DNA from: Pyramidobacter sp. C12-8
Lineage (GTDB): Bacteria; Synergistota; Synergistia; Synergistales; Dethiosulfovibrionaceae
Length of the DNA: 64,000 bases
Direction of reading: 5' to 3'
Assembly: GCF_002007215.1 (NCBI RefSeq)
Contig: NZ_MUHX01000007.1
Coordinates: 1-64,000, forward strand
The position numbers were made by a program, and so were the translations under genes. Each line of letters starts with the position of its first letter. The stretch's first letter is position 1. The notes beneath the pieces were generated by a model. It was given only the letters and a program-made list of their open reading frames with translations. It had not been told where the DNA came from and ran no database searches. Positions 14,638 through 60,747 of the stretch are shown here, in pieces.

Positions 14638-14653
14638 TGTTCCACGTGGAAAT
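14638..14653. other. Degenerate parS (ParB-binding) site
   Basis: TGTTCCACGTGGAAAT matches the palindromic parS 16-mer TGTTCCACGTGGAACA at 14 of 16 positions; both mismatches are at the right end. It is intergenic, 25 bases downstream of the fhs terminator T-run. Three perfect copies occur elsewhere in the window (32844, 56471, 60732), which makes chance unlikely. Confidence 0.7.
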
Positions 14654-14744
14654 TCACCCCGTCACACCAGTAAATACCGGACATCAGATTATATGTTTCT
14701 TTTCAAATTCGAATGACCGTACGAAAAAAAGGAGAACCCGTCCC

Positions 14745-15377
14745 ATGAAGATGACCGAAAAATCCTGCGCCGATTTCGTCGCCGTCCTCGCCACCAAAGC
14801 TCCCGTCCCCGGAGGCGGCGGCGCGTCCGCGCTCTGCGGCGCGATCGGAACCGCGCTGGGCAACATGGTGGGCAGCCTCACCGTCGGCAAGAAGAAGTAC
14901 GCCGCCGTCGAGGATGAGATCAAAAGCCTGCAGGCCAAATGCGACGCGCTGCAGGCCGACCTGCTGGCGCTGGTGGAACAGGACGCCGAGGTCTTCGCGC
15001 CGCTGGCCGCCGCTTACGGCCTGCCCAAAGACACGGGAGAACAGCGGGCGGAGAAAGACCGCGTCATGGAAGCGGCGCTGGGCGCCGCCTGCGGCGTGCC
15101 GCTGCGGATCATGGAGAAATGCTGCGAAGCCATCGGCCTGATGGCCGTCTTCGCCGAAAGGGGTTCGCGCCTGGCCGTCAGCGACGCCGGCGTGGGCGCG
15201 GCCCTGTGCCGCGCGGCGCTCGAAGGCGCGGCGCTGAACGTGTTCATCAACACCAAAGCCATGAAAGACCGCGCCAACGCTGCCGCCATCGACGCCCGCG
15301 CCGAAAAGATGCTGGCCGGCAGCCGCGGCCGCGCCGACAAAATCTACGAAACCGTCATGAATTCCCTGCGCGCCTGA
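14745..15377 (+). CDS. fchA: Methenyltetrahydrofolate cyclohydrolase / formimino-THF cyclodeaminase family
   Basis: A 210-residue, mostly helical folate enzyme of the FTCD_C family. It either removes ammonia from 5-formimino-THF (histidine or purine breakdown) or hydrolyses methenyl-THF. Residues 17-30 (PVPGGGGASALCGA) are the hallmark glycine-rich folate-binding segment. I chose ATG 14745, which has AAAGGAGAA upstream; the open frame starts further upstream only because it runs into the parS-like sequence. It lies between fhs and folD, so all three act on C1-THF. Whether it acts as cyclohydrolase or deaminase cannot be told from the sequence. Confidence 0.88.
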   Translation: MKMTEKSCADFVAVLATKAPVPGGGGASALCGAIGTALGNMVGSLTVGKKKYAAVEDEIKSLQAKCDALQADLLALVEQDAEVFAPLAAAYGLPKDTGEQRAEKDRVMEAALGAACGVPLRIMEKCCEAIGLMAVFAERGSRLAVSDAGVGAALCRAALEGAALNVFINTKAMKDRANAAAIDARAEKMLAGSRGRADKIYETVMNSLRA

Positions 15378-15628
15378 CGCGCCTGTCTCAAAAACAACGG
15401 CAACCACGGAGGAACGAAGAAGTGGAGGGCAGACAGGGTGAAGCGCAAAAAAGCAGAGGACGTTTTTTGAACGCCCCTTCAGCGAAGCAGGATATTTGCG
15501 AAATCCTTCAAATCCTTTCGCAGAGCGTTCTGGAAATCCCGTTGTCCTGTTTTCCGTTTCGCCGCTCCGCCGCTTCTCCGCGGCTGCTTTCGTTCTCCGA
15601 TTTCAATCAGGAAAGGCATGTGATTTTT

Positions 15629-16477
15629 ATGGCTCAGATCCTGGACGGCAAGGCCGTGGCCGCCGCCCTCACCGCGCAGCTCAAAAACGACGTGCAGAAG
15701 CTCAAAGACCGCGGCGTTTCCCCCTGCCTCGCCATCGTGCGCATGGGCGAACGCGGCGACGACCTCGCCTACGAGCGAGGAGCGACCAAGCGCGCCGCGA
15801 CCGTGGGACTGGAAGTGAAACAGTTCGCGCTGCCCGCCGAAGCTTCGCAGGACGAACTGCTGGAAGTCATCGCCAAAATCAACGCCGACGCTTCGATCCA
15901 CGGCTGCCTGATCTTCATGCCGCTGCCGAAGCACATCGACGAAGCAGTCGTGCGCGCGGCGCTGGCCCCCGAAAAGGACGTGGACGGCATCACCGCCGCG
16001 TCGCAGGCTGGCGTTTATTCCGGCAAGGCCGTGGGCTTTCCTCCCTGCACGCCATCCGCCTGCATGGAGATCCTCAGGCATTACCGGATCGAACTGAAAG
16101 GCGCGAACGCCGTCGTCTTCGGGCGCAGCCTCGTCGTCGGCCGCCCGCTGGCGATGATGCTGCTGGCGCAGAACGCCACCGTGACCATCTGCCACACCAA
16201 GACCCGCGACGCCGCCGCCGTCGCCCGCGGCGCCGACGTGCTGCTGGCCGCCGTGGGGCACGCGGGAGCCGTCGGCGAGGCGTTCGTCACTCCCGATCAG
16301 GTGCTGATCGACGTGGGCATCAACGTGAACGCCGAGGGCAAGCTCTGCGGCGACGTCGCCCCCGAAGCGGCGCAGAAGGGCCGCGCCTCCACGCCCGTGC
16401 CCGGCGGCGTCGGCTCCGTCACCACCACCGTGCTCGCCAAGCACGTGATCGAAGCGGCGCAGCGGACGCTCGAATAA
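15629..16477 (+). CDS. folD: Bifunctional methylene-THF dehydrogenase / methenyl-THF cyclohydrolase
   Basis: Cytoplasmic enzyme oxidising 5,10-methylene-THF with NAD(P)+ and hydrolysing the product to 10-formyl-THF. The 282-residue length is typical. The active-site tyrosine and lysine are at Y48 and K54 (YERGATK), and the segment FGRSLVVGRPLA binds the nucleotide. TPVPGGVGSVTT near the C-terminus is a signature of the family. ATG 15629 is used; a GTG at 15620 in the same frame sits closer to the purine-rich GGAAAGG and is an alternative start. The 251-base gap before it contains no gene I can support. Confidence 0.96.
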   Translation: MAQILDGKAVAAALTAQLKNDVQKLKDRGVSPCLAIVRMGERGDDLAYERGATKRAATVGLEVKQFALPAEASQDELLEVIAKINADASIHGCLIFMPLPKHIDEAVVRAALAPEKDVDGITAASQAGVYSGKAVGFPPCTPSACMEILRHYRIELKGANAVVFGRSLVVGRPLAMMLLAQNATVTICHTKTRDAAAVARGADVLLAAVGHAGAVGEAFVTPDQVLIDVGINVNAEGKLCGDVAPEAAQKGRASTPVPGGVGSVTTTVLAKHVIEAAQRTLE

Positions 16478-16500
16478 TCAAAAATCTTCGCCAACACAAA

Positions 16501-16536
16501 GCGGCCGAGATCCCCAACGATCCCGGCCGCTTTTTT
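16501..16536 (+). terminator. Intrinsic terminator after folD
   Basis: A 12-bp stem (16501-16512 with 16519-16530, one mismatch) is followed by six T residues. It lies between folD and the convergent Sel1 gene and may serve both strands. Confidence 0.9.
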
Positions 16537-16573
16537 CATCTCCCCGAATCTTGCCCGTCCGCGCGAGCCGCCC

Positions 16574-19015
16574 CTACCGCTGCGGGACGGTCCCGCGCAG
16601 GGCGTCGAGGCGGGATTCTTTTTCCTTCCGGTCGAGGCGCTGCAGGGCTTCGACCGCGCGTTTGCTGCCGGCGTCGCGGGCAAGCTGGTAATATTGGCGC
16701 GCTTTGGCAAGGTCGGCTTCGACGCCGCGTCCTTCTTCATAAGCGCTGCCGAGGTACCAGGCGGCAAGCGCGTGCCCTTGATTGGCCGCCTGTTCGAACC
16801 AGCTGATGGCCGCGGAGGGCTCGCCCTCGGGACTGTAGCTGTAGAGCAGCCCGAGATTGAACTGCGCGGCGGCGGAGCCGCTCTCGGCGGCGGCCTGCAG
16901 CCAGCGCTGCGCCACGTCGAAGGAACGCTTCACCACAACGCCTTCGGAATAAAGCGTGCCCAGCAGGTTCTGAGCGGGAGCGTAACCCGATTTGGCGGAT
17001 TCTTCCAGCCATTTGAGCGCCTCGTCGGCATCTTTCCAGGTGCCGATGCCGCGCAGCCGCATCAGGCCGAGGTTGTACTGCGCCTGCGCGCTGCCGCCTT
17101 CGGCCGCGGCCGTGTACCAGCGGAAAGCCTCGCGTTCGTCCTTGTCCACGCCCGACCCGGCGGCGTACATGGCGGCCACGTTGCACTGCGCCAGTTCGCT
17201 GCCCTGCCGGGCGGCGGCGAGGTACCAGCGGAACGACTCCTGCAGATTGACCGAATAACCGTAGTCGCCGCGCTTCATGATGCCGGCCAGACGGATCTGC
17301 GCGTTGGCGTCGCCGCGTTCGGCGGCGCGCCGGTAATGGATGACGGCGCTGCGGATGTCGCGCTCTCCCAGCTGTCCCTGCTCGTACAGCAGTCCCAGCG
17401 TATACTCGGCGGGGACGTAGCCGGCTTCCGCCGCCCGGTCGATCATTGCCGCGGCGGCGCGGATCTCGCTGTCCTTTTCGGCCGCGTCGAGACGGAACAG
17501 GCCCATGGCGCACATCGCCGCGGGATGCCCCTGTTCGGCGGCGGCGTTGTACCACTTGACGGCGCGGACCAGATCGGGCGCGTGCCAGCGATCGTCGGAG
17601 TAGCATTGCGCCAGCGCGAACTGGGCGTCGGCGGAGCCGCTCTCGGCGGCTTTCTCGTAATATTTCAGAGCCTGCTCCATTTTTTCCCGGTCGGTGTCGG
17701 ATTTGAGCTGCTCGCCCATGATGAACTGCGCGCGCGGATTGCCGCGTTCGGCGGCTTCGCGGTAAAGGCGCAGGGCTTCGCCGCGGTTGGCGGCGACGAT
17801 CTTGCCCTCCATGTAAAACGTTGCCAGGGCGGTCATCGCTTCCGATTCGCCCATCTCGGCCGCTCTTTTCAGCTTGGCCAAACCGGCCTGTTCGTTCTTC
17901 TCGGTACCCAGTCCGTAGATCTCCATGCGTCCCAGATTGTACAGGGCTTCGCCGTTGCCGCCTTCGGCGCCGAGCGCGTAAAGACGGTAAGCGTCCGTAT
18001 AAGACTGCGCGATGCCGTTCCCCTTTTCGGTCAAGCGCCCCAGCTCGTTGCATCCGGCGGGATCGCCGGCATCGGCGGCCATTTTGTAGTAGCGCGCTGC
18101 GGCCGCCGGATCCTTTTTCACGGTCTTGCCTTTTTCGCTCATGCGTCCCAACAGGACGTAGGCGCCCCACGAGCCGTTTTTGCCCGCCTTCAGCAGCAGT
18201 TCGGAAGCTTCGGCGCCTTTGCCTTCGTCCAGAGCGAGGCGTCCCAGCTCGTACATGGAGGGGGCGTAATCCTCCTTGGCCGCCAGCCCGTGGAGTCTTT
18301 TGGCTTCATCCACGCGGCCGCGTTTTTTTTCCATGTCGGCGGCCACGTAATAGGCGGCCGCATCGCCCTTGGCCGCGGCTTTTTTCAGCAGTTCCAGACC
18401 GGCGGCCGCTTCCGCGGCGGATCCGCGTTCGCCCAGCGCCGCGCCGTAAACGGTCATGGCCCAGAGCTGTTCGCCTTCGGCGCATTTTTTCACGTATTCG
18501 AGCGCGTCTCCGCCCTTCCCTTCCTGAAGAAGCACCTGATAATATTCCTGACAGGCCATGGGAATGTTCTTCTCGATGGCGGCCTCGAGCATTTCCATGG
18601 CCTCGCCGGGATGGGCCTCGCGCTCCGGATGCGCGTGCATGAGTTCGTAGAGGGCGTACATGGCGTACGGTTCGCCGGCGGCGGCGGCCATACGGTACCA
18701 GCGCATGCCGACCGCGAAATCTTCGGCGACGCCGCTGCCCATCGTGTACATATAGCCGAGAGCCGTCATGGCCTGGGGCGATCCCTTTTCGGCGTTGGCC
18801 TGAAAAATGCGGTAGGCCAGCTCGTAATCCTTGGAGCTCCACGCCTGGATGCCTTCGTTGAAAGTCGCCGGTTCGCCGGCTTCGGGCGACTGATCGCCGA
18901 GGGCCACCGGAGTTTTATCCCCGCTCGCGGGCGAGGGCGCGCCCCACGCGGCCGCGCTCCACAAAAACACGGCCAGGATCAGGAGCGGCCACCTTTTCAT
19001 TGCATTTTTCGTCAT
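16574..19015 (-). CDS. Secreted Sel1-repeat (SLR/TPR-like) protein
   Basis: An 813-residue protein with a signal peptide (hydrophobic residues 9-24, cleavage near AWGA) followed almost entirely by Sel1-like repeats of about 36 residues. I estimate around twenty, each with the pattern A...LG.MY..G.GV..D...A..WY..AA..G. Such alpha-solenoids bind other proteins and are exported to the periplasm or surface. The function cannot be told from the repeats. It is transcribed alone, with a weak GAGG before the chosen ATG; a second in-frame ATG five codons later (19000) has no ribosome binding site. A second Sel1 protein is encoded at 32870-34849. Confidence 0.85.
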   Translation of the reverse strand: MTKNAMKRWPLLILAVFLWSAAAWGAPSPASGDKTPVALGDQSPEAGEPATFNEGIQAWSSKDYELAYRIFQANAEKGSPQAMTALGYMYTMGSGVAEDFAVGMRWYRMAAAAGEPYAMYALYELMHAHPEREAHPGEAMEMLEAAIEKNIPMACQEYYQVLLQEGKGGDALEYVKKCAEGEQLWAMTVYGAALGERGSAAEAAAGLELLKKAAAKGDAAAYYVAADMEKKRGRVDEAKRLHGLAAKEDYAPSMYELGRLALDEGKGAEASELLLKAGKNGSWGAYVLLGRMSEKGKTVKKDPAAAARYYKMAADAGDPAGCNELGRLTEKGNGIAQSYTDAYRLYALGAEGGNGEALYNLGRMEIYGLGTEKNEQAGLAKLKRAAEMGESEAMTALATFYMEGKIVAANRGEALRLYREAAERGNPRAQFIMGEQLKSDTDREKMEQALKYYEKAAESGSADAQFALAQCYSDDRWHAPDLVRAVKWYNAAAEQGHPAAMCAMGLFRLDAAEKDSEIRAAAAMIDRAAEAGYVPAEYTLGLLYEQGQLGERDIRSAVIHYRRAAERGDANAQIRLAGIMKRGDYGYSVNLQESFRWYLAAARQGSELAQCNVAAMYAAGSGVDKDEREAFRWYTAAAEGGSAQAQYNLGLMRLRGIGTWKDADEALKWLEESAKSGYAPAQNLLGTLYSEGVVVKRSFDVAQRWLQAAAESGSAAAQFNLGLLYSYSPEGEPSAAISWFEQAANQGHALAAWYLGSAYEEGRGVEADLAKARQYYQLARDAGSKRAVEALQRLDRKEKESRLDALRGTVPQR

Positions 19016-19166
19016 TCAGAGAGCCTCGTTTCACTCAGTCTTTTCGTCCGTTCCCACTTCGCGGCAACGGCGGGGCCTCGTCTTTTTTCCCGCCGCCGCC
19101 GTTATTCCGGGTTCATTTTATCTCATTGAACAGCGTCGGTCAAAATTTTGCCCGCGGACGCCAAAC

Positions 19167-19196
19167 AAAAAAAGGGAGCCGCGCTGCGGTTCCCTT
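19167..19196 (-). terminator. Intrinsic terminator of the YjiH-family gene
   Basis: An 11-bp stem (19172-19182 with 19186-19196, one G-U pair) with a three-base loop. On the minus strand it ends in a run of seven T residues. Confidence 0.82.
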
Positions 19197-19244
19197 GTGC
19201 TTTTTGGATCTGCGCGCCTTTCGCGGCGCCGTCCTTTTTTCGCG

Positions 19245-20594
19245 CTATTTCGCGGCCGCCTGCACCGCGTCGCTGAAGCCCATCCACATGCCGATGGGGA
19301 CCGTGATCAGGATCGAGAGCACGACGCGCTCGAACCAGATCACAAGGATATCGCGGATCTTCAGCGGGATGTCGGTGCCCATGATGCAGGGGATGCTGGC
19401 CGAGAAGAACAGGATCTCGGAGATGCTGACCACGGCGATGACGAACTTGAGCAGCATCGTGCCGGAGCCCTTGATCAGGATCGCGGGCAGGAACATCTCC
19501 GGCAGGCAGATCGCCGCCGCCTTGCCGCCGAGCACGGGCTGCGCCACGCCGAAGAGCTTGAAGAACGGGTAGAAGACGTAGCCGAACCAGTCGAACACCG
19601 GCGTGAATTCCGCCAGCCAGAGCCCCAGCAGCCCCACCGAAGTGATCGCGGGGATCACGGCGAAAGCCATTTTCAAACCGGCCCACAGATTGTCGCCGCA
19701 AAGTTTGAACACGTTGGGCTGGGCGGCGGCCGTGCGGATGCCGATCTGCCAGGCGCGTTCGAGGCGGCCGCCCTCGAGGCGAGGCTCGGGCGCCGCCGCG
19801 CCGCCGAAATACGTGTCGGGGATCGAGCACAGCGGCCAGAGACGCGCCGTGATCGCCGTGACGATAAACGTCACCAGCATGGCCACGAAGAAATACGGCG
19901 TCCAGTGATCCATCAGCCCCAGCGTGCGCGCCACGACCAGCAGGAACGTCATCGAGACCGTCGAGAATCCCGTGGCGATGACGGCCGCCTCGCGGGCCGT
20001 GTAGCGGTTGGATCGGTACACGCCGTTGGTGATGATCAGGGCGATGGAATAGCTGCCCACGAACGAGGCCACCGCGTCGATGGCCGAACGCCCCGGCGTG
20101 CGGAACAGCGGACGCATGACGCAGTCGACCAGCACGCCGATGAACTCCATCAGGCCGTAGCTGGCCAAAAAGGCGAGGAACACCGAACCGATGGGGATCA
20201 CCAGCCCGACCGGGATCGCCAGCTTGTCGAACAGGAACGGGCCGATGTCGCCGCGCCACAGCCAGGCGTTGCTCCGCCACAGGCCGAAATACATGATCGT
20301 GCCGATCGCGGCGCCGCAGATTTTGGCTACCGACATGAAAATGTCCATGCCGTTTTTGTTCCACGTGCCTTTGATAAAGGGCATAGCCGCGCCGACGTAC
20401 ATGACCGCGAGGATAAAGATCTTCACGGCCGGCATCGCGCGGCTCTGCAGCGAGCTGACGATGAAATCGACCGGCACGCTCTTCAGGTTCGGGCTCAGCC
20501 ACTCGAGTTTGAAGAAAAACATGAACAGGCCGAACAAACTGAAAACGACGAACTTCCATAAAGCCGAACTGCGGGGCGCTGCGTTTTCGGACAT
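19245..20594 (-). CDS. YjiH-family membrane protein with nucleoside-recognition (Gate) domains
   Basis: A 449-residue polytopic inner-membrane protein of the YjiH/Gate family, with many hydrophobic segments and conserved stretches such as SFVGSYSIALIITNGVY and KAAAICLPEMFLPAILIKG. Family members are presumed transporters or gates of unknown substrate. I chose ATG 20594; the open frame extends 32 codons upstream, but that part would translate a promoter-proximal hairpin and is unlikely to be coding. Transcription probably starts near 20690 from a good promoter. A terminator-like hairpin lies in the leader, so expression may be attenuated. Confidence 0.82.
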   Translation of the reverse strand: MSENAAPRSSALWKFVVFSLFGLFMFFFKLEWLSPNLKSVPVDFIVSSLQSRAMPAVKIFILAVMYVGAAMPFIKGTWNKNGMDIFMSVAKICGAAIGTIMYFGLWRSNAWLWRGDIGPFLFDKLAIPVGLVIPIGSVFLAFLASYGLMEFIGVLVDCVMRPLFRTPGRSAIDAVASFVGSYSIALIITNGVYRSNRYTAREAAVIATGFSTVSMTFLLVVARTLGLMDHWTPYFFVAMLVTFIVTAITARLWPLCSIPDTYFGGAAAPEPRLEGGRLERAWQIGIRTAAAQPNVFKLCGDNLWAGLKMAFAVIPAITSVGLLGLWLAEFTPVFDWFGYVFYPFFKLFGVAQPVLGGKAAAICLPEMFLPAILIKGSGTMLLKFVIAVVSISEILFFSASIPCIMGTDIPLKIRDILVIWFERVVLSILITVPIGMWMGFSDAVQAAAK

Positions 20595-20647
20595 TCGAAC
20601 ACCACAACCTTTCGTAAAATCGCTTGAGGCCGGACGCCTCCTGCGGC

Positions 20648-20678
20648 AAAAAACGGGAACCATCTTCCCGTTTTTTTT
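20648..20678 (-). terminator. Terminator-like hairpin in the YjiH leader
   Basis: A stem CGGGAA/TTCCCG flanked by A- and T-runs on both sides, so it has a T-tail in either direction. On the minus strand it lies about 12 bases after the predicted transcription start and 54 bases before the YjiH start codon. No gene ends just upstream on either strand, so it looks like an attenuator and not an ordinary 3' terminator. Confidence 0.55.
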
Positions 20679-20696
20679 AACTTCGCTCACGCGTTT

Positions 20697-20725
20697 ATTA
20701 TACGTTTTAGGCGCAAAAAAATCAA
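20697..20725 (-). promoter_or_regulatory. Sigma-70-type promoter for the YjiH-family gene
   Basis: On the minus strand: TTGATT (-35), 17-base spacer, TATAAT (-10). The start point would be near 20690, giving a leader of about 95 bases that contains the hairpin at 20648-20678. The remainder of the 359-base intergenic stretch (20595-20953) holds this promoter and the divergent one at 20835. Confidence 0.7.
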
Positions 20726-20834
20726 TATCATCGTTAATTTCTCTTGTTTCTTTGCCGGACTCGCTTTCGGCGACGCGACAGCCGTACGAACTGCGCGCGG
20801 CGCATCTCCGTCCCGCGGGAAGAAACCGGCCGTA

Positions 20835-20863
20835 TTGACTTTGTCAGGCGCGAATGAGATACT
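20835..20863 (+). promoter_or_regulatory. Promoter for the MGMT-like gene
   Basis: TTGACT, 17-base spacer, GATACT on the + strand, about 90 bases before the start codon at 20954. It is divergent from the YjiH promoter. It probably also serves dinB, since no terminator is visible between the two repair genes. Confidence 0.55.
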
Positions 20864-20953
20864 CATAGTGTCTAAATAACTTTGTTGATGACAAATTGAT
20901 TTTCGACCGCGCAGGCGCCGTTTTGCGCAGACGATCAAACAGGAGGCGAACCG

Positions 20954-21322
20954 ATGAGAAACGAAAAATTTGCGGGCGAGATCCCCATCACGCCGGCCTT
21001 TGAACGGGCCGTCCATAAGATCGTGGCGGCCATTCCCAGAGGGAAAGTCGCCACCTACGGTCAGGTCGCGGAAATGGCGGGAATGCCCGGCGCCGCCCGC
21101 GAGGCGGGACACGTGATGTCCCGCGTCAGAGCGGAACAGGATCTCCCCTGCCACAGAGTCGTGAACAAGACGGGAACGCTGGCGCCCGACTTCGCCTTCG
21201 GCGGGCGGGAGCGGCAGCGCAGTATGCTGGAAGCGGAAGGCGTCACGTTCCTCGCCGACGGCCGCATCGACATGTCGCGGCATCAATGGGGCCGCGGCGA
21301 ACAGCTGACGCTGTTTCCGTAA
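20954..21322 (+). CDS. MGMT-domain DNA alkyltransferase-like protein (short form)
   Basis: A 122-residue protein equal to the C-terminal catalytic domain of O6-alkylguanine-DNA alkyltransferase. It has the helix-turn-helix and arginine finger region and the active-site cysteine in LPCHRVV (C66). Because the motif is PCHR and not PWHR, it is not an Atl-type protein and could accept an alkyl group. It lacks the N-terminal domain present in Ogt and Ada (usual length about 160-180), so its activity is uncertain. AGGAGGCG precedes the ATG. dinB follows after 140 bases on the same strand, which links it with tolerance of damaged bases. Confidence 0.85.
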   Translation: MRNEKFAGEIPITPAFERAVHKIVAAIPRGKVATYGQVAEMAGMPGAAREAGHVMSRVRAEQDLPCHRVVNKTGTLAPDFAFGGRERQRSMLEAEGVTFLADGRIDMSRHQWGRGEQLTLFP

Positions 21323-21462
21323 AGGAGCGACGGGAAGCCGTCTTGGCGTCTCGGCGAAGGGAAACGGCGCGCCCGTCGACCGGAAGCGGCCGGCCCGCTT
21401 CCGGGGAAAAGGACCGTCAGGCGGTGCGTACGGGCAGCCACGGGGAAAAAGGAGGGGGGATC

Positions 21463-22728
21463 ATGACGCAAGCGGCCGTAAAGACGCCCATACAAAGGAC
21501 CGTCATCCACGTCGACATGGACGCGTTCTACGCCGCAGTCGAGATCCGCGACAACCCGGCCCTGAAAGGCCGGCCGCTGATCATCGGCGCGCTGCCCGAC
21601 GAGCGCGGCGTCGTCGCCACGTGCAGCTACGAAGCGCGCCGGTTCGGCGTGCGTTCGGCCATGAACATCAAGGAAGCGTACCGGCGCTGCCCGCGGGGGA
21701 TCTTCATGCACCCCAACCGGGAAAAGTACCGCCGGGCTTCGGCCCGGCTGCACGCCATCTGGAGCTCTTACGCCGACGCCGCCGAATACGTGGCGCTCGA
21801 CGAAGGCTACCTCGACGTCACCCGTTCCGCGCGCCGGTTCGGCGGCGCCCGGCGCATCGCCCGCCTCATCAAGGAGCGCACGAGAGCCGAAACCGGCCTG
21901 ACCTGCTCCGTCGGCATCGGCTACTCGAAAACATCCGCCAAGCTCGCCAGCGAGGAAAAGAAGCCCGACGGCTACTTCGAGATCCTCACGCCGCAGGATT
22001 TCATCGACCTCATCGTCGATCGCGACATCACCGTGCTCTACGGCGTCGGCGCCAGGACCGCGGAAAAACTCTACCACGCCGGCATCCACACCGTGCGCGA
22101 CGTCCAGAACAACCGCGAACGGCTCGCCGCCCTGCTCGGAGACAAAACCGGACGGCACCTCGCCGAACTGTCCCTCGGCATCGACGACCGCCCCGTCACT
22201 CCCGCCGACGCCGCCGACGCCAAGTCCGTCAGCCGCGAAGTCACGTTCCAGAAAGACACCTCGCATTTCGGCTACCTGCGCGACGTGCTCCTGCTGCTGT
22301 CGTTCGACCTGGGCAGCAGGCTGCGCGCGCTCGGCCTCAACGGGCGCACCGTCACGATCAAGGCGACCTACTGGAACATGAAGACCGTCACACGCTCCCG
22401 CAGCGGCGAAAGCGTCGACCATCCCTACGAGATCTATCAGGCGGCCTCGGCCCTGCTCGCCGGGATCGAGAAGAGCGCCGTGCGCCTGATCGGCGTCGGC
22501 CTCCAGAACCTCAGCGAAACGTACGCGCGCCAGCTCACCTTCGATACTCTCGGCGGCGAACGCGAACGCCGGCACGCCGAACGCCTCCGCGCCCGCCTGC
22601 TGGACCTGCAGCGCCGTTACCGCGTGGACCTGCGCCCGGCGCTGCAGGACGAGACCGGAGAACTTCTGTACCACGTCATTGACCTGATGCAGACCCGCGT
22701 CTTCCCGACGACGCCCAACGGGGCATGA
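21463..22728 (+). CDS. dinB: DNA polymerase IV (Y-family)
   Basis: Translesion polymerase that copies past damaged bases. I chose ATG 21463, preceded by GGAGGGGGG; the open frame continues upstream without a sensible start. The 421 residues hold the Y-family catalytic carboxylates D18 (HVDMDAFYAAVE) and D113-E114 (ALDEGYLD), the SYEARRFGVRSAM finger motif, and the little-finger domain at the C-terminal end. The catalytic loop reads DEGY where most members have DEAY. The last codons and the stop lie inside a perfect 30-bp inverted repeat. It is probably co-transcribed with the MGMT-like gene. Confidence 0.95.
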   Translation: MTQAAVKTPIQRTVIHVDMDAFYAAVEIRDNPALKGRPLIIGALPDERGVVATCSYEARRFGVRSAMNIKEAYRRCPRGIFMHPNREKYRRASARLHAIWSSYADAAEYVALDEGYLDVTRSARRFGGARRIARLIKERTRAETGLTCSVGIGYSKTSAKLASEEKKPDGYFEILTPQDFIDLIVDRDITVLYGVGARTAEKLYHAGIHTVRDVQNNRERLAALLGDKTGRHLAELSLGIDDRPVTPADAADAKSVSREVTFQKDTSHFGYLRDVLLLLSFDLGSRLRALGLNGRTVTIKATYWNMKTVTRSRSGESVDHPYEIYQAASALLAGIEKSAVRLIGVGLQNLSETYARQLTFDTLGGERERRHAERLRARLLDLQRRYRVDLRPALQDETGELLYHVIDLMQTRVFPTTPNGA

Positions 22729-22784: not shown

Positions 22785-22812
22785 TTTTCTCTCGGCGTTT
22801 CGACCGCCCGCT

Positions 22813-32573: not shown

Positions 32574-32790
32574 CCTCATTCCTCCAGTGCCATTCTTTCG
32601 CTTCCGCAGGCGGCGAAAAAAACGCCCGCAAACTCCGGAAATCCACCGCGTTGATTGTACCACGCGCCCCATCCCTTTGCACGGAGGGCGCGGACAAAAC
32701 CGCCGCGGGACGGGAGGAAATTTCGTCATGCTATTGGCACCCCGCGGAAAGCGATTTTACGAAAAGAGCCTTTTGAACCACGTCCGACGA

Positions 32791-32840
32791 AAAGCGGCTG
32801 GAGGCCGATGGATCCTCGATCATCGGCTTCCAGCCGCTTT
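32791..32840. terminator. 20-bp hairpin beside a parS site
   Basis: Left arm 32791-32810 and right arm 32821-32840 pair over 20 bases with one mismatch. Minus-strand transcripts from the Sel1 gene (ending at 32870) would reach it after crossing the parS palindrome. The T-tail is short, so its strength as a terminator is uncertain. It ends directly against the 22-bp parS palindrome. Confidence 0.6.
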
Positions 32841-32843
32841 CAA

Positions 32844-32859
32844 TGTTCCACGTGGAACA
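32844..32859. other. parS (ParB-binding) site, perfect
   Basis: TGTTCCACGTGGAACA, a 16-bp palindrome equal to the bacterial parS type recognised by chromosomal ParB. Here the palindrome extends to 22 bp (32841-32862). It is intergenic, ten bases past the stop of the Sel1 gene. Identical copies lie at 56471 and 60732. Confidence 0.88.
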
Positions 32860-53248: not shown

Positions 53249-53299
53249 GGGGCCGCGCACGCGGATAAAACGACTTTTCTCAGGGGGGAAAACAAAAAA

Positions 53300-54676
53300 A
53301 TGGCGGACAATCAGAATCTCGTTTCTCAGCTCAGTTCCGAAAAGACGGAGTTCAAGCGCGAGATCACGCTGTTCGGCGGCGTCAGCATCCTCGGCGGCAT
53401 CATGATCGGCGGCGGCATCTTCTATCTCGGCTCCTACGTTTTGCAGCGGGCCGGCTTCAGCCTCGGGCTGGCGCTGCTGTGCTGGTTCGTGGGCGGCGTC
53501 ATTTCGTTGCTGGGCGGCCTGTGCTTCGCCGAACTGGGGGCGATGATCCCCAAGGCCGGCGGCGTCACGGTGTACCTGAACACGGCCTACCACCCGCTGG
53601 TCGGCTTCATCAGCGGCTTCAACAGCTGGCTCCTGACCGGCCCCGCTTCGTTGGCCGCGGGCGCGGTGGCGCTGACGGCCATGTTCGGCCTCGGCGGCGT
53701 GGCGGCGCAGATCGTCGCTTCCGCCATCCTGATCGCCTTCACGGCCTACAACTGCTTCGGCATCAAGCGCGGCTCCGTGCTGCAGAACGTCACGATGGTC
53801 GCCAAGCTGATCCCCATCTTCATCATCATGGGCTCGGCGTTTTTCATGGGCGACGTCTCGCCCGATCTTTCCTTCACGCCCATGGACGGGCCGGTTCCGT
53901 TTTCCAAGGTGCTGAACATGATCGGCTTCGCCACGCTGGCGACGCTGTGGGCTTACGAGGGCTGGACGAACCTCAACGCCGTCACCGAGGAGATCAGGGA
54001 CCCCAAGCGCAACCTGCCGCTGTCGCTGATCATCTCCATCTCCGGCATCGCCGTGCTCTACATGCTGTTCAACTACGCCATCTACCGCGTGCTGCCTCTG
54101 GCCGAGATCCGCGCCATGATCGAGGCGAAAAAGCTCTATCTGGGCACCGAAGTCGCTCTGCGCCTGCTGGGCGGCGCGGGCGGCATCCTCGTCACCGTGG
54201 GCATGGTCGTCTCCATGCTCGGCTCCATCAACGGCATGGTCATCGCCTTCCCGCGCAACTACTACGCCATGGCCAAGGAAGGGCATTTCTTCCGCTCGTT
54301 CGCCAGGCTTCACCCCGCCTACAAGGTCCCCACCGCGCCGATCCTCTGCCAGTGCGCCATCTCCATCGCCTACATCTGGGTGCGCAGCCTCGACCAGCTC
54401 ACCAACCTGGTGGTCTTCGGCTCGATGCTCATCAACGTGCTGATCATCGCCGCCGTGCTGGTGCTGCGCAAAAAGCTGCCCGACCTCGAGCGTCCCTACA
54501 AGGTGTGGGGCGGCGCGTTCACCGTCTGCCTGACGCTGCTGATCAACTTCGGCATGATGGTCAACACGCTGGTCAACGACCCCGTCACCTGCGTCACCGG
54601 GCTTTCCGTCCCCTGCGTGGCGGCCTGCGTTTACTTCTACTTCGGCTACAGGAACAAAAGGGAAGAACAGCGGTAA
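53300..54676 (+). CDS. APC-superfamily amino acid permease
   Basis: A 458-residue inner-membrane amino acid transporter. It begins with a short charged N-terminus followed by GGVSILGGIMIGGGIFYLGSYV, the unwound first helix typical of APC proteins, and has about twelve hydrophobic segments. The segment LWAYEGWTNLNAVTEEIRDPKRNLP is characteristic of the family. It lies between two YtcJ-type amidohydrolases, 51 bases after the first. The three genes suggest uptake of an amide- or acyl-amino-acid compound and its cleavage; the transported amino acid is not identifiable. Confidence 0.93.
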   Translation: MADNQNLVSQLSSEKTEFKREITLFGGVSILGGIMIGGGIFYLGSYVLQRAGFSLGLALLCWFVGGVISLLGGLCFAELGAMIPKAGGVTVYLNTAYHPLVGFISGFNSWLLTGPASLAAGAVALTAMFGLGGVAAQIVASAILIAFTAYNCFGIKRGSVLQNVTMVAKLIPIFIIMGSAFFMGDVSPDLSFTPMDGPVPFSKVLNMIGFATLATLWAYEGWTNLNAVTEEIRDPKRNLPLSLIISISGIAVLYMLFNYAIYRVLPLAEIRAMIEAKKLYLGTEVALRLLGGAGGILVTVGMVVSMLGSINGMVIAFPRNYYAMAKEGHFFRSFARLHPAYKVPTAPILCQCAISIAYIWVRSLDQLTNLVVFGSMLINVLIIAAVLVLRKKLPDLERPYKVWGGAFTVCLTLLINFGMMVNTLVNDPVTCVTGLSVPCVAACVYFYFGYRNKREEQR

Positions 54677-54698
54677 GCTTCCGCACGGCCGAAAAACC

Positions 54699-54741
54699 GC
54701 GCCGCGGAGCAGGGCGGCCCGCCCTGTTCCGCGGCGCTTTT
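54699..54741 (+). terminator. Terminator-like hairpin between the APC permease and second YtcJ gene
   Basis: A 19-bp stem (54699-54717 with 54719-54737, one G-U pair and a very small loop) followed by TTTTG. It probably acts as a partial terminator and reduces read-through into the second amidohydrolase. Confidence 0.65.
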
Positions 54742-54779
54742 GCGACGGAGCGGAACGCTCCATCGGAGGTACGAAAAAA

Positions 54780-56405
54780 ATGAAAAAATTCGCCCTTGTT
54801 AACGGGAAAATCTACGTGGAGCGCGGCCGCTTCGCGCAGGCGCTTTACGCCGAAGACGGCTTGATCCGCCTCGTCGGACGCGACGACGAGATCGGATCGG
54901 CCGCCGGGCGCGGCGTGGAAATATTCGACTGCGAAGGCCGCACGGTGATCCCCGGCCTCAACGACAGCCACATGCACCTGCTCGGCGTCGGCATGGAGAT
55001 GTCGCAGCTGCGGCTGAACGGCGCGCGCTCCGTCGGCGAGATCGTCGCGCGCAGCCGGAAGTTCCTCGCCGAGCATCCCGATCTGTGCCGCCACGGCGTC
55101 GCCGGTATCGGCTGGAACCAGGACCTTTTCGACGAAGGCGAAAAGCGCCTGCCCAACCGCCACGATCTCGACAAAATCTCCGCCGACGTTCCTATCGTCG
55201 TCGAGCGCGTCTGCCGCCATATCGCCGCCGTCAACACCAAAGCCATCGAAATGCTCGGCCTGGGCAAAAATTCGCCCCAGTACGAAAACGGCGAGTTCGA
55301 GCTGGAAGCCGACGGCTTCCCCAGCGGCGTCTTCAAGGAACAGGCCGTCGTTCACGCCAGCCGGCTGATTCCGCCGCACTCCGCGGCCGAATACGAGGAC
55401 ATGTTCGTCAAAGCCGCCGATTACGCCGTCGCCCACGGCCTCACCAGCGTGCAGTCGAACGACGCCGGCTTCGTCCCCGTTCCCGTCGGCGCGCTGCTGG
55501 AGATCGTCGCCCGCGCCCACGCCGGCGGCCGCACGGCGCTGCGCTACCGCCATCAGATGACCTTCCGCGGCGTCGGCGACTTCGAAGACTTTCTGCGCGG
55601 CGGCGCGCGCGAAAAATATCACGACCCCGCCGCCCACGTCGAGATCGGGCCGCTCAAGCTCTTCAAGGACGGCTCGCTGGGCGGCCGCAGCGCCGCCATG
55701 AGCCGCGATTACCGCGACGATCCCGGCAACCGCGGCGTGGAAACGCTCTCCAACGAGGAGATGGACCGCTTCTGCCGGGCCGCCCGCGACGCCGGCGTGC
55801 AGGTCATCACCCACGCCATCGGCGACCGGGCCGTCGCCGACACGGTCGCCTGCTACGAGCGCGTCATGGAGGGCGGGAAAAACCCGCTGCGCCACATCGT
55901 CAACCACTGCCAGATCACCGACCGCCCGCTGCTCGAACGCATCGCCGCGGACCGCCTCTGCGTCGCCTATCAGCCGATCTTCCTCGACTACGACATGCAC
56001 ATCGCCGAGTCGCGCTGCGGCGCGGAGCTGGCGAGCACGTCCTACGCCTTCGGCACGGCCGCCGCGCTCGGCATACCCGTCGGCTACGGCACCGACGCGC
56101 CGGTCGAGGACTGCAACCCGTTCCCCTGCATCTACTCCGCCGTCACCCGCATGGACCGCCTCGGCCGGCCCGAGGGCGGCTGGTTCCCGCAGGAGAAAGT
56201 CGACGTCGAGACGGCGATCGACGCCTACACGGCCGGCAGCGCCTATCTCGAATTCCACGAACGCGACAAGGGACGCCTCAAGCCCGGCTTCGTCGCCGAC
56301 CTGGCCGTGCTCGACCGCGACATCTTCGCCTGCCCGATCGAGCAGATCCGCGAGATCCTGCCCGCGGCGACCGTGATCGGCGGCGAGATCGTCTACCGCC
56401 GCTAG
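54780..56405 (+). CDS. YtcJ-type metal-dependent amidohydrolase (copy 2)
   Basis: A 541-residue paralogue of the protein at 51617-53248, with the same domain order. The metal histidines are H64 and H66 (GLNDSHMHLLG). It also has HIVNHCQITDRPLLER, DYDMHIAESRCGAELASTSYAFG and GTDAPVEDCNPF. CGGAGGT precedes the ATG. The two copies share motifs but differ substantially elsewhere, suggesting different substrates and not a recent duplication. It follows the APC permease after 103 bases. Confidence 0.9.
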   Translation: MKKFALVNGKIYVERGRFAQALYAEDGLIRLVGRDDEIGSAAGRGVEIFDCEGRTVIPGLNDSHMHLLGVGMEMSQLRLNGARSVGEIVARSRKFLAEHPDLCRHGVAGIGWNQDLFDEGEKRLPNRHDLDKISADVPIVVERVCRHIAAVNTKAIEMLGLGKNSPQYENGEFELEADGFPSGVFKEQAVVHASRLIPPHSAAEYEDMFVKAADYAVAHGLTSVQSNDAGFVPVPVGALLEIVARAHAGGRTALRYRHQMTFRGVGDFEDFLRGGAREKYHDPAAHVEIGPLKLFKDGSLGGRSAAMSRDYRDDPGNRGVETLSNEEMDRFCRAARDAGVQVITHAIGDRAVADTVACYERVMEGGKNPLRHIVNHCQITDRPLLERIAADRLCVAYQPIFLDYDMHIAESRCGAELASTSYAFGTAAALGIPVGYGTDAPVEDCNPFPCIYSAVTRMDRLGRPEGGWFPQEKVDVETAIDAYTAGSAYLEFHERDKGRLKPGFVADLAVLDRDIFACPIEQIREILPAATVIGGEIVYRR

Positions 56406-56470
56406 AGCCGCGTTTTTCCGGAACGGGACGCCGGAAGCGCGGCGTCTCCTTTTCCGCGGGCGAAAGAAAA

Positions 56471-56486
56471 TGTTCCACGTGGAACA
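56471..56486. other. parS (ParB-binding) site, perfect
   Basis: TGTTCCACGTGGAACA, the same 16-bp palindrome as at 32844 and 60732. It is intergenic, 65 bases after the second YtcJ gene and 133 bases from the end of the adhesin gene. Confidence 0.9.
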
Positions 56487-56568
56487 TCCGCTCATGAAAC
56501 GTTGAAAAAACCGCGACCGGCACGCATCGAAAAAAACACGTTCCGGCGCGGCAGTCATAAAACAAACG

Positions 56569-56609
56569 GAAAGGCGCGGACCGAGAGACGAATCCAGTCC
56601 GCGCCTTTC
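56569..56609 (-). terminator. Terminator hairpin after the adhesin gene
   Basis: A perfect 13-bp stem (GAAAGGCGCGGAC and its complement) followed on the minus strand by T-rich GTTTGTTTTATG. Confidence 0.75.
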
Positions 56610-56619
56610 ATACGATTTC

Positions 56620-58812
56620 TTACGGTTTCCCCGCCTGCCGGGCCCTCCCCGAGGCGCGCAGCAGGCGTTCCAGTTCCGCCATGCGCGCTTTCAGTTCGGT
56701 CTGTTGGCGAGCCTGCGAAGCCTTCAGTTCCGCAATTTCCTGAGCCTGCGAAGCCTTCATCTCCGCCATCTCGTGCTCCATCGAGGCCACCTGGGCCTGC
56801 AATTCGGCGTTCTCCTTCTGCATCACGTAGACGCTGCCGATCGGGCCCTTGCGGTAGCGCGCCGGGATCGCGTCCTTGTCTTCCCTGCGCCCGATCTTCC
56901 ACGTCAGCCCGGCGTTGGCCATCGACTCGCCGTGGTCGGAAATCGACACGCCGGCGTGAACCATGAAGTCTTCCCTGACGTAATGCGCCACGCCCAGCGC
57001 CAGCGCCCACGTGTCGCGGTAGTTGCCGAAGCCGGCCATGATCTGGCTGGGTTCGACGGGATCGTACTGCATCGGTTTCAGTCCGGCGAGCGCGGAGCCC
57101 AGCGCGCCGACGTTCTTGACGTCGCTTCGCAGCTCGTCCATCTGGTTGTAAACGCTGCCGAAGTTGTTGTAGATGTTGGTGAATTCGGTGTCGACGGCGC
57201 TGAGGGCGTCGCCGACGTTATGGTACGTGCCGCCGCGGATGGTGTAGGCAGGCGCGCTGATCGAGCCGTCGGAATTGACCGTGGAGCCGCCGCCGAAGTG
57301 ATTGGAGACGCTCGACGAGACGCCCCACAGCTGCGAGCCGTTGACCGCGTCGGCGCTGGTCTGGCTGACTTCGCCCTTGGCGACGTTGGCGATCTTTTTG
57401 TTTCCGGCGTCGATGCCGGCCTTGGTGACCGAGGGGCCGTTGTGGATGACGAGGCCGTTGTCGGTGATCGAGGTGCCGCCGGCCGTAAAGGTGTTCGCGG
57501 TGACGCTGTTGAAGTTCACGTCGGCTTTCGTGGCGACGGTGACGTTTTTGTCGTCGCGGGTGATGGTGATGTTGTCGCCGCTGGTGAACGTCACCGTGTC
57601 GTCGGGATTGACGGCGGCCGGGGGCTGCGCGCCGGGCTTGGTGTCGAGGTTCCAGGAGCCGCCGGCGCCGTCGAGTTCGAGGACAAGGGTCTGGCCCTCG
57701 ACGGTCAGTTTCAGTCCTTCGCCGGCCTTGAAGGCCGGGGCGGCCGCGGCGCTTTCCATGTCCAGCGCGCCCAGGAGCGCGCCGCTTGAGTCGAAGGCGC
57801 GGAACGAGAGGCCGCGCTTGAGCTGGGCGACGTTGACGGCGTCGGTGCCGTGCGTGCCGCCGGCCACGCCGGTGATCTGGCGGCTGGCGACCTGCACGGT
57901 TTCCGTAACGAGATTGCCGTTCAGTTTGGTATAAGTGTAATTGTACGGCGTCCGGTTGCCCACGGCGACGGCGTTGTGCGTGGATTTCCAAGCCGGCTCC
58001 GTCTGCCCGCCGGCCAAAAAGGCCGTTTCCCCGGCGGGAGTGTCCGCGGTGGCGGCGCTGCCGAGGGCTACGGAACCGGCCAGTTTGGCGTGGGCGCCCC
58101 AGCCCGCGGCGAAGGAGTTTTCCGCCGCTTCCTCAGCGACGCCGCCCGACGCGGCCAGGGAGTTCTCGCCTTTCGCCTGCGAAGCGTATCCCATGGCGGT
58201 GGAATAGTCGCCGCTGGCGATCGTGTAACTCCCCATCGCGGTGGAAGAGAAACCGCTGGCGGTCGTCCCCTTCCCCATCGCGGTGGAAGCGCCATCGCCG
58301 CTGGCGGTCGCCTCCCATCCCATCGCGGTGGAAAATTGGCCGCTGGCGGTTGTTTCCCCTCCCATCGCGGTGGAATAGATGCCGCTGGCGGTCGTTTTCC
58401 ATCCCATCGCGGTGGAATAGTCGCCGCTGGCGATCGTTTCCCCTCCCATGGCGGTGGAATAGTCGCCGCTGGCGGCCGTTTTCCATCCCATGGCGGTGGA
58501 ATAGTCGCCACTGGCGGTCGTTTCCCCTCCCATCGCAGTGGAAGAGCCGCCGCTGGCGGTCGTTTGCTGTCCCATCGCGATGGAAGAGAAACCGATGGCG
58601 GCCGTCCCCTTCCCCATCGCGATGGCGTCAGCGCCGGTCGCCTGCGAGTCGGAGCCGATCACGACGAGCGCGCCCACGCCCGGAAGGGCGGCGCTGCCGA
58701 TCTGCAGCTGGTCTCCCGTCACGACGATGCCCCAGCCGGCTTCCGCTGTCGTGACCGCCAGCGCCAGAGCCAGAAGCGCCCGCGCGGCGCAGAATTTTCC
58801 CTTCGTTTTCAT
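56620..58812 (-). CDS. YadA-like trimeric autotransporter adhesin with C-terminal coiled-coil extension
   Basis: A 730-residue surface adhesin. Order of parts: signal peptide (1-25); head of about eleven 14-residue YadA head repeats (60-214, pattern [14 protein letters not shown]); a first neck-type motif (315-332, DAVNVAQLK); stalk; a second neck motif (474-497, [24 protein letters not shown] in part); a coiled-coil stalk; and the four-strand YadA membrane anchor (about 568-640, ending NAGLTWKIG). Unusually, 90 residues follow the anchor, including a strong coiled coil at about 664-718 (heptads around [15 protein letters not shown]). The ATG at 58812 has AAGGAGA upstream; a much longer open frame beyond it is not coding. 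Confidence 0.92.
58171..58635 (-). repeat. 42-bp tandem repeats encoding the adhesin head
   Basis: About eleven consecutive units of 42 bases, one of 45, encode the 14-residue head repeats. Several units are nearly identical at DNA level, with two sub-types alternating (MGGET and MGWKT). Such repeats can gain or lose units by slippage or recombination and so vary the length of the adhesin head. Confidence 0.9.
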
Positions 58813-59047
58813 CTTGATCCGTCTCCTTTGTGTGGCACGCCGCATGGAGCGGCGTACGATATGTTGTCTTTTGACATTTACAAGTTTAACACCCCCCGTA
58901 AAGATAACAAATTGTATTCGTCGCGGCGCGGATTTTTCATCGCAAAGCGCGCCGCCGAGGGAGTCGGCGGAGGGCCCGCGGAAGCTCCCGCCTTTCGGGG
59001 CGGCGGGGCCGCGGCCGCCGCCCGAGCGACGTTTCGCGCGAAAATCC

Positions 59048-59076
59048 TTGAACAAATCGTTTTTCAGGAGTAGAGT
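59048..59076 (+). promoter_or_regulatory. Probable promoter for TSUP gene 1
   Basis: TTGAAC, 17-base spacer, TAGAGT, with the start about 34 bases before the gene. It is divergent from the adhesin gene. The 297-base gap (58813-59109) otherwise contains no gene; the adhesin promoter is not clear, though TTGTTA-16-TAAACT on the minus strand is possible. Confidence 0.45.
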
Positions 59077-59109
59077 AAGCGGGAAATCACCCAGAAACGG
59101 AGACCTGCC

Positions 59110-59835
59110 ATGAATGTCCTCACCCTCGCGCTTTTGATGAGCTCCGCGGCCGCCGGCGGGATCATCAACACTGTCTGCGGCTTCGGGCTCGGCGCCGTGG
59201 CCATGTCCGTCTGGCCTTACCTGATGCCCTACATGCAGTCCGTATCGGTGGTCACTCTCTGCGGGCTGACGATCGATCTGCTGCTGCTGTCCAGCACGTA
59301 CCGCTTCATCAGCTGGAAAAAGCTGGTGCCGTGCCTGATCTGCGGGATGATCTTTTCCAGTCTGTCGGTCTATCTTTCCGTCGGCGCTGCCGAAAAGGTG
59401 CTCGTGCGCTCGCTGGGCGTCATCCTCATCGCTCTGGGCGTGTATTCGGTGTTCTTCAGCGGCCGGATCCGCATCAAAGCGTCGCCGTTCAACGGCTGCA
59501 TCGCCGGCGCGCTGGCCGGCACTTTTTCGGGGCTCTTCTCCGTCGGCGGGCCGCCGGTGGCCATATACCTCCTCGCGGGGACCGACTCCAACAGCGAATA
59601 CCGCGCCACGCTGAACGCGTACTTCTGCTTCATCAACGTGAGCACTACGTGGGCGCGCTGGCGCAACGGCATCATCACGGCGCAGGTGCTGCAGGTCTGG
59701 CTGCTGCTGGCCGCCGCCGTCGGGCTGAGCATTCTCGTCGGCAACAAAGTCTTCCACAAACTCGACGGGGCGAAGCTGCGCAAAATAGTTTACGCTTACC
59801 TGATCTTCTCGGGCGTGCTGCTGCTCTTCCGCTGA
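59110..59835 (+). CDS. TSUP-family (TauE/SafE) anion permease, copy 1
   Basis: A 241-residue inner-membrane permease of the sulfite-exporter TauE/SafE family, normal in length, with about seven or eight hydrophobic segments. The two internal repeats each carry a conserved glycine-rich motif: [18 protein letters not shown] near the start and [14 protein letters not shown] in the middle. Typical substrates are sulfite, sulfoacetate or other sulfur-containing or organic anions. A paralogue with the same length follows after 117 bases. Confidence 0.92.
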
Positions 59836-59890
59836 GTTTCGAGCGCCGGCGGGGACCGCCCCGTGGAAAGCGGCCTTTGTTTTTTCGCGC

Positions 59891-59919
59891 TTGAAAAGGC
59901 GCGCCGAAAAGCGTAAAGT
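59891..59919 (+). promoter_or_regulatory. Promoter for TSUP gene 2
   Basis: TTGAAA, 17-base spacer, TAAAGT, 34 bases before the start codon. It suggests the second copy can be expressed separately. Confidence 0.55.
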
Positions 59920-59952
59920 GGATACATTCCCCTTTAAAAAGGAGTTTTCTTC

Positions 59953-60678
59953 ATGCCGCCTCTTACTTTCGCCGCAGCCTTTTCGGTCAGCCTGATCGGC
60001 GCGGTCATCCAGGCCGTCTGCGGTTTCGGCTACGGGCCGGTGAACATGTCGCTGCTGCCCTACCTCTTTCCCTACGCGCAGGCGGTCGCCCTCTCCGGCC
60101 TGTGCGGCTCGACGACGGCCGTTTTTGTCGCCGCCAGCAGCTTCAGGTACATCCGCTGGAAGACCGTGCTGCCCTGCGCTTTGACGGCGCTTGTTTTTGC
60201 GGCTCTGTCGGTGCAGCTGTCCGCCGGCGCCGCCGACGGGTTCATGGTTCGCAGCCTCGGCGCCGCGCTGGTCGCGCTGGGCGTTTATTCGATCTTCTTC
60301 AGCGGCCGCCTCCGCATCAGGCCGACGCCGCGCAACGGAACCATCGCCGGCGCGCTGGCCGGTGCGCTCTCGGGGCTCTTTTCCGTCGGCGGCCCGCCCA
60401 TGGCCCTCTACCTGCTGGCCGCCACCGACAGCAACGACGAATACCGCGCTTCGCTGAACGCTCATTTTTGCTTCACCGCCTGCATCACCACGTTCATGCG
60501 CTGGCGCAACGGGGCCTTTACCGCTGCCACGATCCGCGCGTACGGACTTGTCCTCGTTTCGCTGCTGCTGGGCGCCTGGATCGGCGGGAAAAATTTCCGC
60601 CGTCTCGACCCCAAGCGTCTGCGCCTGCTCGTCTATGGCTATCTGATCGCCTCCGGGCTCCTGATGCTCTTCAAGTAA
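59953..60678 (+). CDS. TSUP-family (TauE/SafE) anion permease, copy 2
   Basis: A 241-residue paralogue of the preceding gene, also with the motifs [18 protein letters not shown] and [21 protein letters not shown]. The two proteins are colinear without gaps and share many identical positions, so they arose by tandem duplication followed by divergence. AAGGAG precedes the ATG, and the gene has its own promoter. They might form a heterodimer or use different anions; neither can be read from sequence. Confidence 0.92.
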
Positions 60679-60731
60679 GAAAAAAATCATCTTCCGCCCG
60701 AAAGCGTTTCCGCGCTGCGCTCTCGATCGGT

Positions 60732-60747
60732 TGTTCCACGTGGAACA
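60732..60747. other. parS (ParB-binding) site, perfect
   Basis: TGTTCCACGTGGAACA between the second TSUP gene and a bidirectional terminator that begins 13 bases further on. Third perfect copy in the window. Confidence 0.9.

Follow-up and report, generated by a model that had tools for sequence, protein, structure and literature searches.

Several genomes of Pyramidobacter contain about sixty copies of parS, the palindromic site of the chromosomal partitioning protein ParB, distributed over both arms of the chromosome and thinning out towards the terminus. The analysis concerns a 64,000-nucleotide stretch of Pyramidobacter sp. C12-8 (contig NZ_MUHX01000007.1, positions 1 to 64,000; hereinafter, the window), which carries three exact copies and one degenerate copy of the site, and the genomes related to it. 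In bacteria, parS is usually present in one to twenty copies located beside the replication origin. In Pyramidobacter, the copies have the parS sequence, are better conserved than their surroundings, avoid gaps between divergent genes and occur together with one matching ParB, a parA gene and SMC.

The genome to which the window belongs (G000, 2.67 Mb in 182 contigs) comprises 61 copies of the parS core GTTNCACGTGNAAC. The original prediction regarded the sites of the window as a cluster, but such a designation does not fit a genome with 55 exact copies of the 16-mer, and with 76 copies at up to two mismatches versus a single copy for the reversed-pattern control. The core was scanned in 185 genomes of Synergistota. 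The Pyramidobacter set includes G000, the near-closed genome G138 of the same species (two contigs, of 2,777,081 bases and 18 kb), the sister species G001, and G002, G003 and G004. The core is present in 61 copies in G000, 65 in G138, 63 in G003 and 61 in G001, and in 11 and 3 copies in G002 and G004, which are only 82–83% complete; the remaining 179 genomes contain 0–4 copies each. The counts within the genus form a series of 3, 11 and 61–65, with the caveat that the two lower values come from these incomplete genomes. Among 14 loci found by a ParB search of named genomes, a search which may omit those close to the genome of the window, L049 and L050 encode ParB proteins with at least 50% identity and both belong to Pyramidobacter sp.; their genomes, G185 and G186, show 3 and 11 core sites, as in G004 and G002. 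In G186, a metagenome-assembled genome, these 11 sites are located on 10 contigs; five of them are GTTTCACGTGAAAC, and six combine a T half and a C half. This genome is a possible candidate for an intermediate stage of the increase in parS number.

The chromosomal distribution was assessed using G138. GC skew, calculated from 59 evenly spaced 10-kb stretches, places the terminus near 1.19 Mb, while the origin side is less sharp and lies between ~2.6 and 0.28 Mb. The parB gene was placed near 162 kb by the matching flanks of the sites of G000 contig C122 and by locus L018 at 186 kb. A one-sided pattern listed 61 distinct sites of the 65, leaving four unplaced. Identical parS flanks at positions 4154, 2729423 and 2755211 of contig C1 point to redundant contig ends of ~26 kb; the circle was taken as 2.725 Mb, and two listed copies in these ends were dropped, which leaves 59 sites. 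Successive fifths from parB to the far side contain 24, 18, 9, 4 and 4 of them, with 44 sites in the half near parB and 15 in the other. The positions are non-uniform (Rayleigh p 1.6e-6), and the biggest gap among the listed sites, 389 kb between 1.101 and 1.491 Mb, encloses the terminus indicated by the skew (P 0.007 if placement were uniform). The site density is also unequal among the contigs of G001, where all 61 sites are listed (Monte Carlo p 0.013). No site is present in the first 357 kb of its 402-kb contig C1, where 8.7 would be expected (P0 1.7e-4); the skew of this contig changes sign near 255 kb, inside the siteless stretch.

The window matches G138 in inverted orientation at 511–517 kb with 98.2% identity, and its site at 60732 corresponds by flank to the G138 site at 483407. 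Extrapolated from this one 5.85-kb match and one site flank, the window occupies ~480–546 kb of G138, ~0.32–0.38 Mb from parB, and is therefore situated in the site-dense half, yet not at the origin. The assumption that the sites mark oriC has to be abandoned, given some sixty copies over most of the chromosome and a distance of ~0.35 Mb between the window and parAB. The original prediction also named copies spread evenly round the chromosome as evidence that would speak against it; the copies are indeed spread widely, but not evenly, being sparse near the terminus. Restriction of parS to the origin region, a usual though not strictly defining property of chromosomal ParABS systems, was not found in Pyramidobacter, and the system is therefore called here a ParABS variant.

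The comparison of G000 with G001 indicates that the sites are probably kept by selection. At least 35 of the 51 intact G000 sites compared, out of 61, are present in G001 (33 by the main comparison, plus C122:9008 and C104:16798); this proportion is safer than 35 of 40, because the stretches compared from G001 are those surrounding its own sites. Five sites are absent from G001 where the flank is covered (C122:8891, C122:18827, C105:13432, C127:10154 and C166:56472), and 11 have no orthologous stretch among those compared. In the core, 477 of 496 columns are identical (96%), versus 79–85% in the flanks within 80 nt; divergence amounts to 15–21% within 80 nt of the sites and to ~7% in the far, mostly coding flanks. 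An unchanged 14-mer would be expected in ~6% of cases if identity were 82%, and in 34% at the 92.6% identity of the far flanks. Individual sites have been gained and lost while the totals hold at 61–65. Overall, the sites are best read as dispersed, selected ParB-loading sites.

The exact 16-mer is found at 53 of 61 G001 sites, with a preference outside it for A at −1 (49/61), T at +1 (43/61), A or G at −2 (56/61) and T or C at +2 (58/61), roughly RATGTTCCACGTGGAACATY. The G001 copy C11:7469 (GTTGCACGTGGAAC), probably a chance match, is counted among the 61 and excluded from the tally of gene context. Open reading frames (ORFs) for this tally and for the random control points given below were called by a custom GC-bias picker, and some calls of sites inside genes represent shadow ORFs, such as a 1386-aa frame over position 60733. 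Of 60 G001 sites, 23 are convergent, 31 codirectional, 2 divergent, 2 inside genes and 2 at edges; the corresponding numbers for 51 G000 sites are 18, 21, 3, 7 and 2, and a cruder first pass gave 27, 23, 1, 8 and 2 for the sites of G001. In the 59 stretches of G138, convergent and divergent gaps constitute 22% and 21% of the intergenic length. Convergent gaps are over-used (23/56 intergenic G001 sites), and divergent gaps are avoided (2/56 in G001 and 3/42 in G000). The motif TTTT occurs within 3–20 nt of 31 of 122 arms (25%); random points gave 14% when drawn from non-divergent gaps and 10% when drawn from convergent ones. In many of the arms with TTTT, the T run closes a strong terminator hairpin that precedes the site by ~8 nt. 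A recurring family of such hairpins, GCGGCCGG-AGCCGATG...CATCGGCTTCCGGCCGC, adjoins several sites, including window positions 32790–32841 and G001 C1:361939, C4:86958, C8:39794, C11:34879, C12:66181 and C13:58696.

The HTH_ParB domain (PF17762) has a single match in G000 and one in each of G001–G004, the G002 match being located at a contig end. The residues at the ParB contact positions (Caulobacter numbering, placed by motif) are R173-K179-S184-G201 in G000, G001 and G003 and R-K-Q-G in G004; the truncated G002 protein was left out. The ORF directly upstream of parB at L016 contains MKTIAVINQKGGVGKTT, a motif by which we take it to encode ParA. The protein scores above the NCBIfam parB_part cut-off and below that of nucleoid_noc (204 of 315 bits). 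SMC is above the family cut-off in G000, G138, G001 and G002 and is represented by split pieces in G003 and G004; loss of SMC as an event freeing parS was rejected, since SMC is present. According to PMC7383237, the RXXG code corresponds to parS, and QKKR to the Noc-binding sites (NBS). The original prediction was right in assigning the palindrome to the classical parS type of chromosomal ParB: the sole ParB found has the parS-type residues R173 and G201, and the genome contains a matching parAB. Taking together the sequence, the matching residues and the conservation, the palindromes are very probably ParB-binding sites.

The Pyramidobacter system resembles the chromosomal ParABS systems of B. 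subtilis, P. aeruginosa (parS consensus TGTTCCACGTGGAACM, PMC5098823), Caulobacter and Streptomyces in the parS sequence, the parS-type residues of ParB, the position of parA beside parB and the presence of SMC. Unlike these, it has 61–65 sites over both arms instead of one to ~20–23 near the origin: PMC7333895 mentions up to 20–23 parS near the origin, and PMC10197239 one to 20. Among the papers cited here, the broadest natural distribution is that of B. subtilis, with eight sites over ~0.75 Mb (PMC8357415). In number and terminus-poor spread, the palindromes are similar to the ParB-family NBS of Firmicutes (PMC4726725), and their dispersed arrangement is shared with nucleoid occlusion by Noc, but the site is parS, the protein has R173/G201 and not Q173/R201, and its N-terminus is not clearly Noc-like. 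The hundreds of 7-bp half-parS sites of P. aeruginosa offer a parallel: ParB contacts them across the genome, and a role in shaping the nucleoid has been proposed (PMC7022226); in contrast to these common 7-mers, Pyramidobacter has full 16-bp palindromes, conserved and intergenic. The sites of SlmA (SBS) in E. coli are also dispersed terminus-poor palindromes (PMC4726725), but SlmA is an unrelated protein of the TetR family, and SBS are unrelated to parS.

It seems, with moderate confidence, that the dispersed sites serve for arm-wide loading of ParB tied to ParA and SMC. The ParB/parS system of Pyramidobacter would have grown from the 0–4 sites found elsewhere in the phylum to about sixty over both arms, thinning toward the terminus, and the lone ParB adjoining parA would, judging from its residues, read all of them. 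ParB dimers would load at each site as cytidine triphosphate (CTP) clamps; CTP-dependent clamp loading is established for ParB generally (PMC7053999, PMC8494293). In convergent gaps behind terminators, bound ParB might spare promoters and escape sweeping by RNA polymerase. Such an array would allow ParA and SMC to act along the arms, so that ParABS would handle the bulk of the chromosome rather than the origin alone and the terminus would stay free.

Several points weigh against arm-wide loading. In Caulobacter and P. aeruginosa, extra or moved parS sites are reported to be disfavoured or non-functional outside a zone of ~500–650 kb that surrounds the native parS or the origin, including extra mid-arm sites in Caulobacter (PMC5815017, PMC5098823), and strong parS sites set far apart make SMC collisions noticeable (PMC8357415). 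The mid-arm sites would contradict the expectation of a permissive zone and of SMC collisions, and Pyramidobacter would therefore have to withstand such effects or have another mode of SMC loading. Throughout the five Pyramidobacter genomes, the CTP box of ParB reads GERR[FY]HAC, versus mostly GERRWRAA in relatives, with His where most of them have Arg; the same box occurs in 12 non-Pyramidobacter genomes with only 1–2 sites, and the substitution is not supported as a driver of parS expansion. The conservation counts are biased by the choice of comparison stretches around G001's own sites, and C155:79553 and C155:81603 of G000 are a local duplicate of one G001 site, which leaves 32 distinct sites among the 33.

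A possible but rather doubtful alternative is that ParB has taken over nucleoid occlusion, with the terminus-poor parS sites acting like NBS and marking unsegregated DNA for the division machinery. In number, the 61–65 sites come close to the ~70 B. subtilis NBS, which are also scarce in the Ter region (PMC4726725). Among 21 non-Pyramidobacter genomes, 13 encode a second HTH_ParB protein, five encode one (G006, G020, G021, G044 and G012, the last 66% complete) and three none, whereas each of five Pyramidobacter genomes has one match. All eight of the second paralogs read, out of 13 (L041–L048), carry Q173-K179-x-R201, and some of their N-termini resemble MDVVRFL or MWDVLRFL. Against nucleoid_noc, two second paralogs reach 220 and 227 bits and so remain under the cut-off of 315, and the Noc assignment rests on the residues and not on the scores, because these barely exceed the score of Pyramidobacter ParB. 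In PMC7383237, noc genes are described as confined to Firmicutes. The NBS ATTTCCCGGGAAAT, searched as ATTNCCCGGGNAAT, was found in 11 of 12 genomes with a second paralog, in 1–4 copies each with at least one copy beside parB. Seven genomes that have no second paralog, including two without any ParB, gave no match; G006 has two off-consensus copies away from parB. No copies were found in G000, G001 and G003, and the Noc code Q173/K179/K184/R201 is not present in Pyramidobacter ParB (R/K/S/G); Pyramidobacter shows neither a Noc paralog nor NBS.

The same data hold evidence opposing this take-over. The relatives' NBS number just 1–4 copies with at least one at parB, and a dispersed ancestral Noc system is therefore not seen. 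Four genomes with a single ParB match (G006, G020, G021 and G044) have just 1–2 parS sites, so paralog loss is insufficient for dispersal, and loss of Noc alone is not supported as the cause. Pyramidobacter ParB retains the GRGLGALL region, the part in which ParBs bear the ParA peptide, and the protein resembles a ParB linked to ParA. Its N-terminal 11 residues lack amphipathic character (hydrophobic moment, muH, 0.04 versus 0.34–0.46 in four Noc-type N-termini), although this measure is weak: the best-window muH is 0.65–0.67 in ordinary ParBs, 0.47–0.48 in Pyramidobacter ParB and 0.34–0.60 in Noc-type N-termini, and does not separate the classes. Arm-wide loading is preferred over the take-over, and both may coexist. 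It is also possible, with a likelihood like that of the take-over, that in this natural lineage a point centromere became chromosome-wide, with one ParB, after disappearance of the Noc paralog, performing both segregation and the timing of nucleoid occlusion and some sixty terminus-poor parS sites replacing Noc and NBS.

Neutral or selfish spread, in which parS copies multiply by chance or ride on terminator repeats without a role, is improbable. Gains and losses of sites, shared hairpin families in the flanks and local duplicates (C6:861/2030; C155:79553/81603) would suit it, but flank similarity at E 0.01 was detected in just 46 of 1830 pairs of the 61 G001 sites, the totals are nearly equal in four genomes, the terminus bias is strong, and the conservation of the core, far above that of the near flanks, strains such an explanation. 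It is very unlikely that the palindromes themselves are transcription terminators forming RNA hairpins. This notion would explain the 3′-end positions and the excess of TTTT near the arms, and some sites are found inside longer palindromes, one of which (46 bp in G000, L004/L065) has compensatory changes in G001. However, the 16-mer including the loop is invariant at 53/61 G001 sites, showing no covariation, separate full terminators adjoin many sites, and neither a terminus bias nor restriction to a single genus would be expected. Operators of transcription factors might also be intergenic palindromes at many places, but the near avoidance of divergent, promoter-to-promoter gaps and a sequence that is exactly parS make this hardly credible. 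The origin-proximal cluster proposed originally agrees with the usual vicinity of parS to oriC and with a local density of three exact sites per 64 kb, above the genome mean of 55 in 2.67 Mb; the genome-wide count and the distance from parAB leave it next to no likelihood.

Among the matches listed in searches of the open-licence literature on parS in Pyramidobacter, ParB and parS in Synergistota (10 of 12 matches listed for parS) and dispersed parS, no title or beginning of an abstract concerns such an array. A 2020 review (PMC7333895) asks why the number of parS varies and why the sites remain clustered. Pyramidobacter appears to be a natural counter-example, with about three times the 20–23 sites mentioned there, occupying most of the chromosome and apparently kept by selection. 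The incomplete sister genomes with 3 and 11 sites, together with 0–4 sites elsewhere in the phylum, provide a before-and-after series and a setting in which to study how SMC collisions, segregation by ParA and the control of division are managed once parS has ceased to be a point.

In the window, matches with up to three mismatches comprise four sites only; shuffled sequences average 0.16, and none of 100 reaches four. The positions given by the original prediction, their intergenic location (supported by the ORF layout and the scanned flanking genes) and their rarity by chance all proved correct. The exact 16-mer at 32844..32859, between HlyD-like and Sel1 genes, is intact in G001 (C8:39794), and a terminator-like hairpin, AAGCGGCTGGAGGCCGATG...CATCGGCTTCCAGCCGCTT (32790..32841), ends 2 nt before it. 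The exact copy at 56471..56486 is absent at the orthologous G001 place; it is preceded by an Amidohydro_3 gene, the gene on its other side being outside the scan, and a terminator-like hairpin read from the sequence (56428..56453, + strand) is located between the amidohydrolase gene and the site. The third exact copy, 60732..60747, lies in the convergent gap between TauE and M20 peptidase genes and adjoins a terminator-like hairpin likewise read from the sequence, CGGTTCTCCGGCA...TGCCGGAGAACCG (60768..60805); its core is intact in G001, with C as the first base, and the flanks have diverged. The degenerate site TGTTCCACGTGGAAAT at 14638..14653, with two mismatches, is located between FTHFS and FTCD_C genes, and the orthologous G001 position contains the intact TGTTCCACGTGGAACA. 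An intrinsic-terminator-like hairpin with a T-tract, read from the sequence (14580..14612, + strand), follows the FTHFS gene upstream of this site.

Some observations concern other Synergistota. No HTH_ParB match and no core parS were found in G014, G015 and G018, and G014 also has no full SMC match. In L023, L027, L028 and L029 (G005, G010, G007 and G009), residue 201 of the main ParB is R, while PMC7383237 describes G at this position as absolutely conserved among ParB orthologs. Because of this residue and of 0–1 canonical parS in these four genomes, their centromere may have changed; a G/C hybrid site was not seen in the four parB loci. Noc-type sites at the 3′ end of parB were absent from L016, L019, L025 and L030; in L019, the locus of G044 with its single ParB match, the FPGK peptide is kept through other codons. 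L020 has ATTTCCGCGGAAAT at the parB 3′ end, and in L033 and L027 the site lies 31 nt before and 227 nt after the stop codon, respectively. In 11 of the 18 Synergistota parB loci read (L021, L022, L023, L026, L028, L029, L031, L032, L034, L035 and L037), the Noc-type site TATTTCCCGGGAAATA or a form differing in one base overlaps the final codons of parB together with its stop codon (FPGK/FPGE-stop), and it seems that a Noc site is written into the coding end of the gene.

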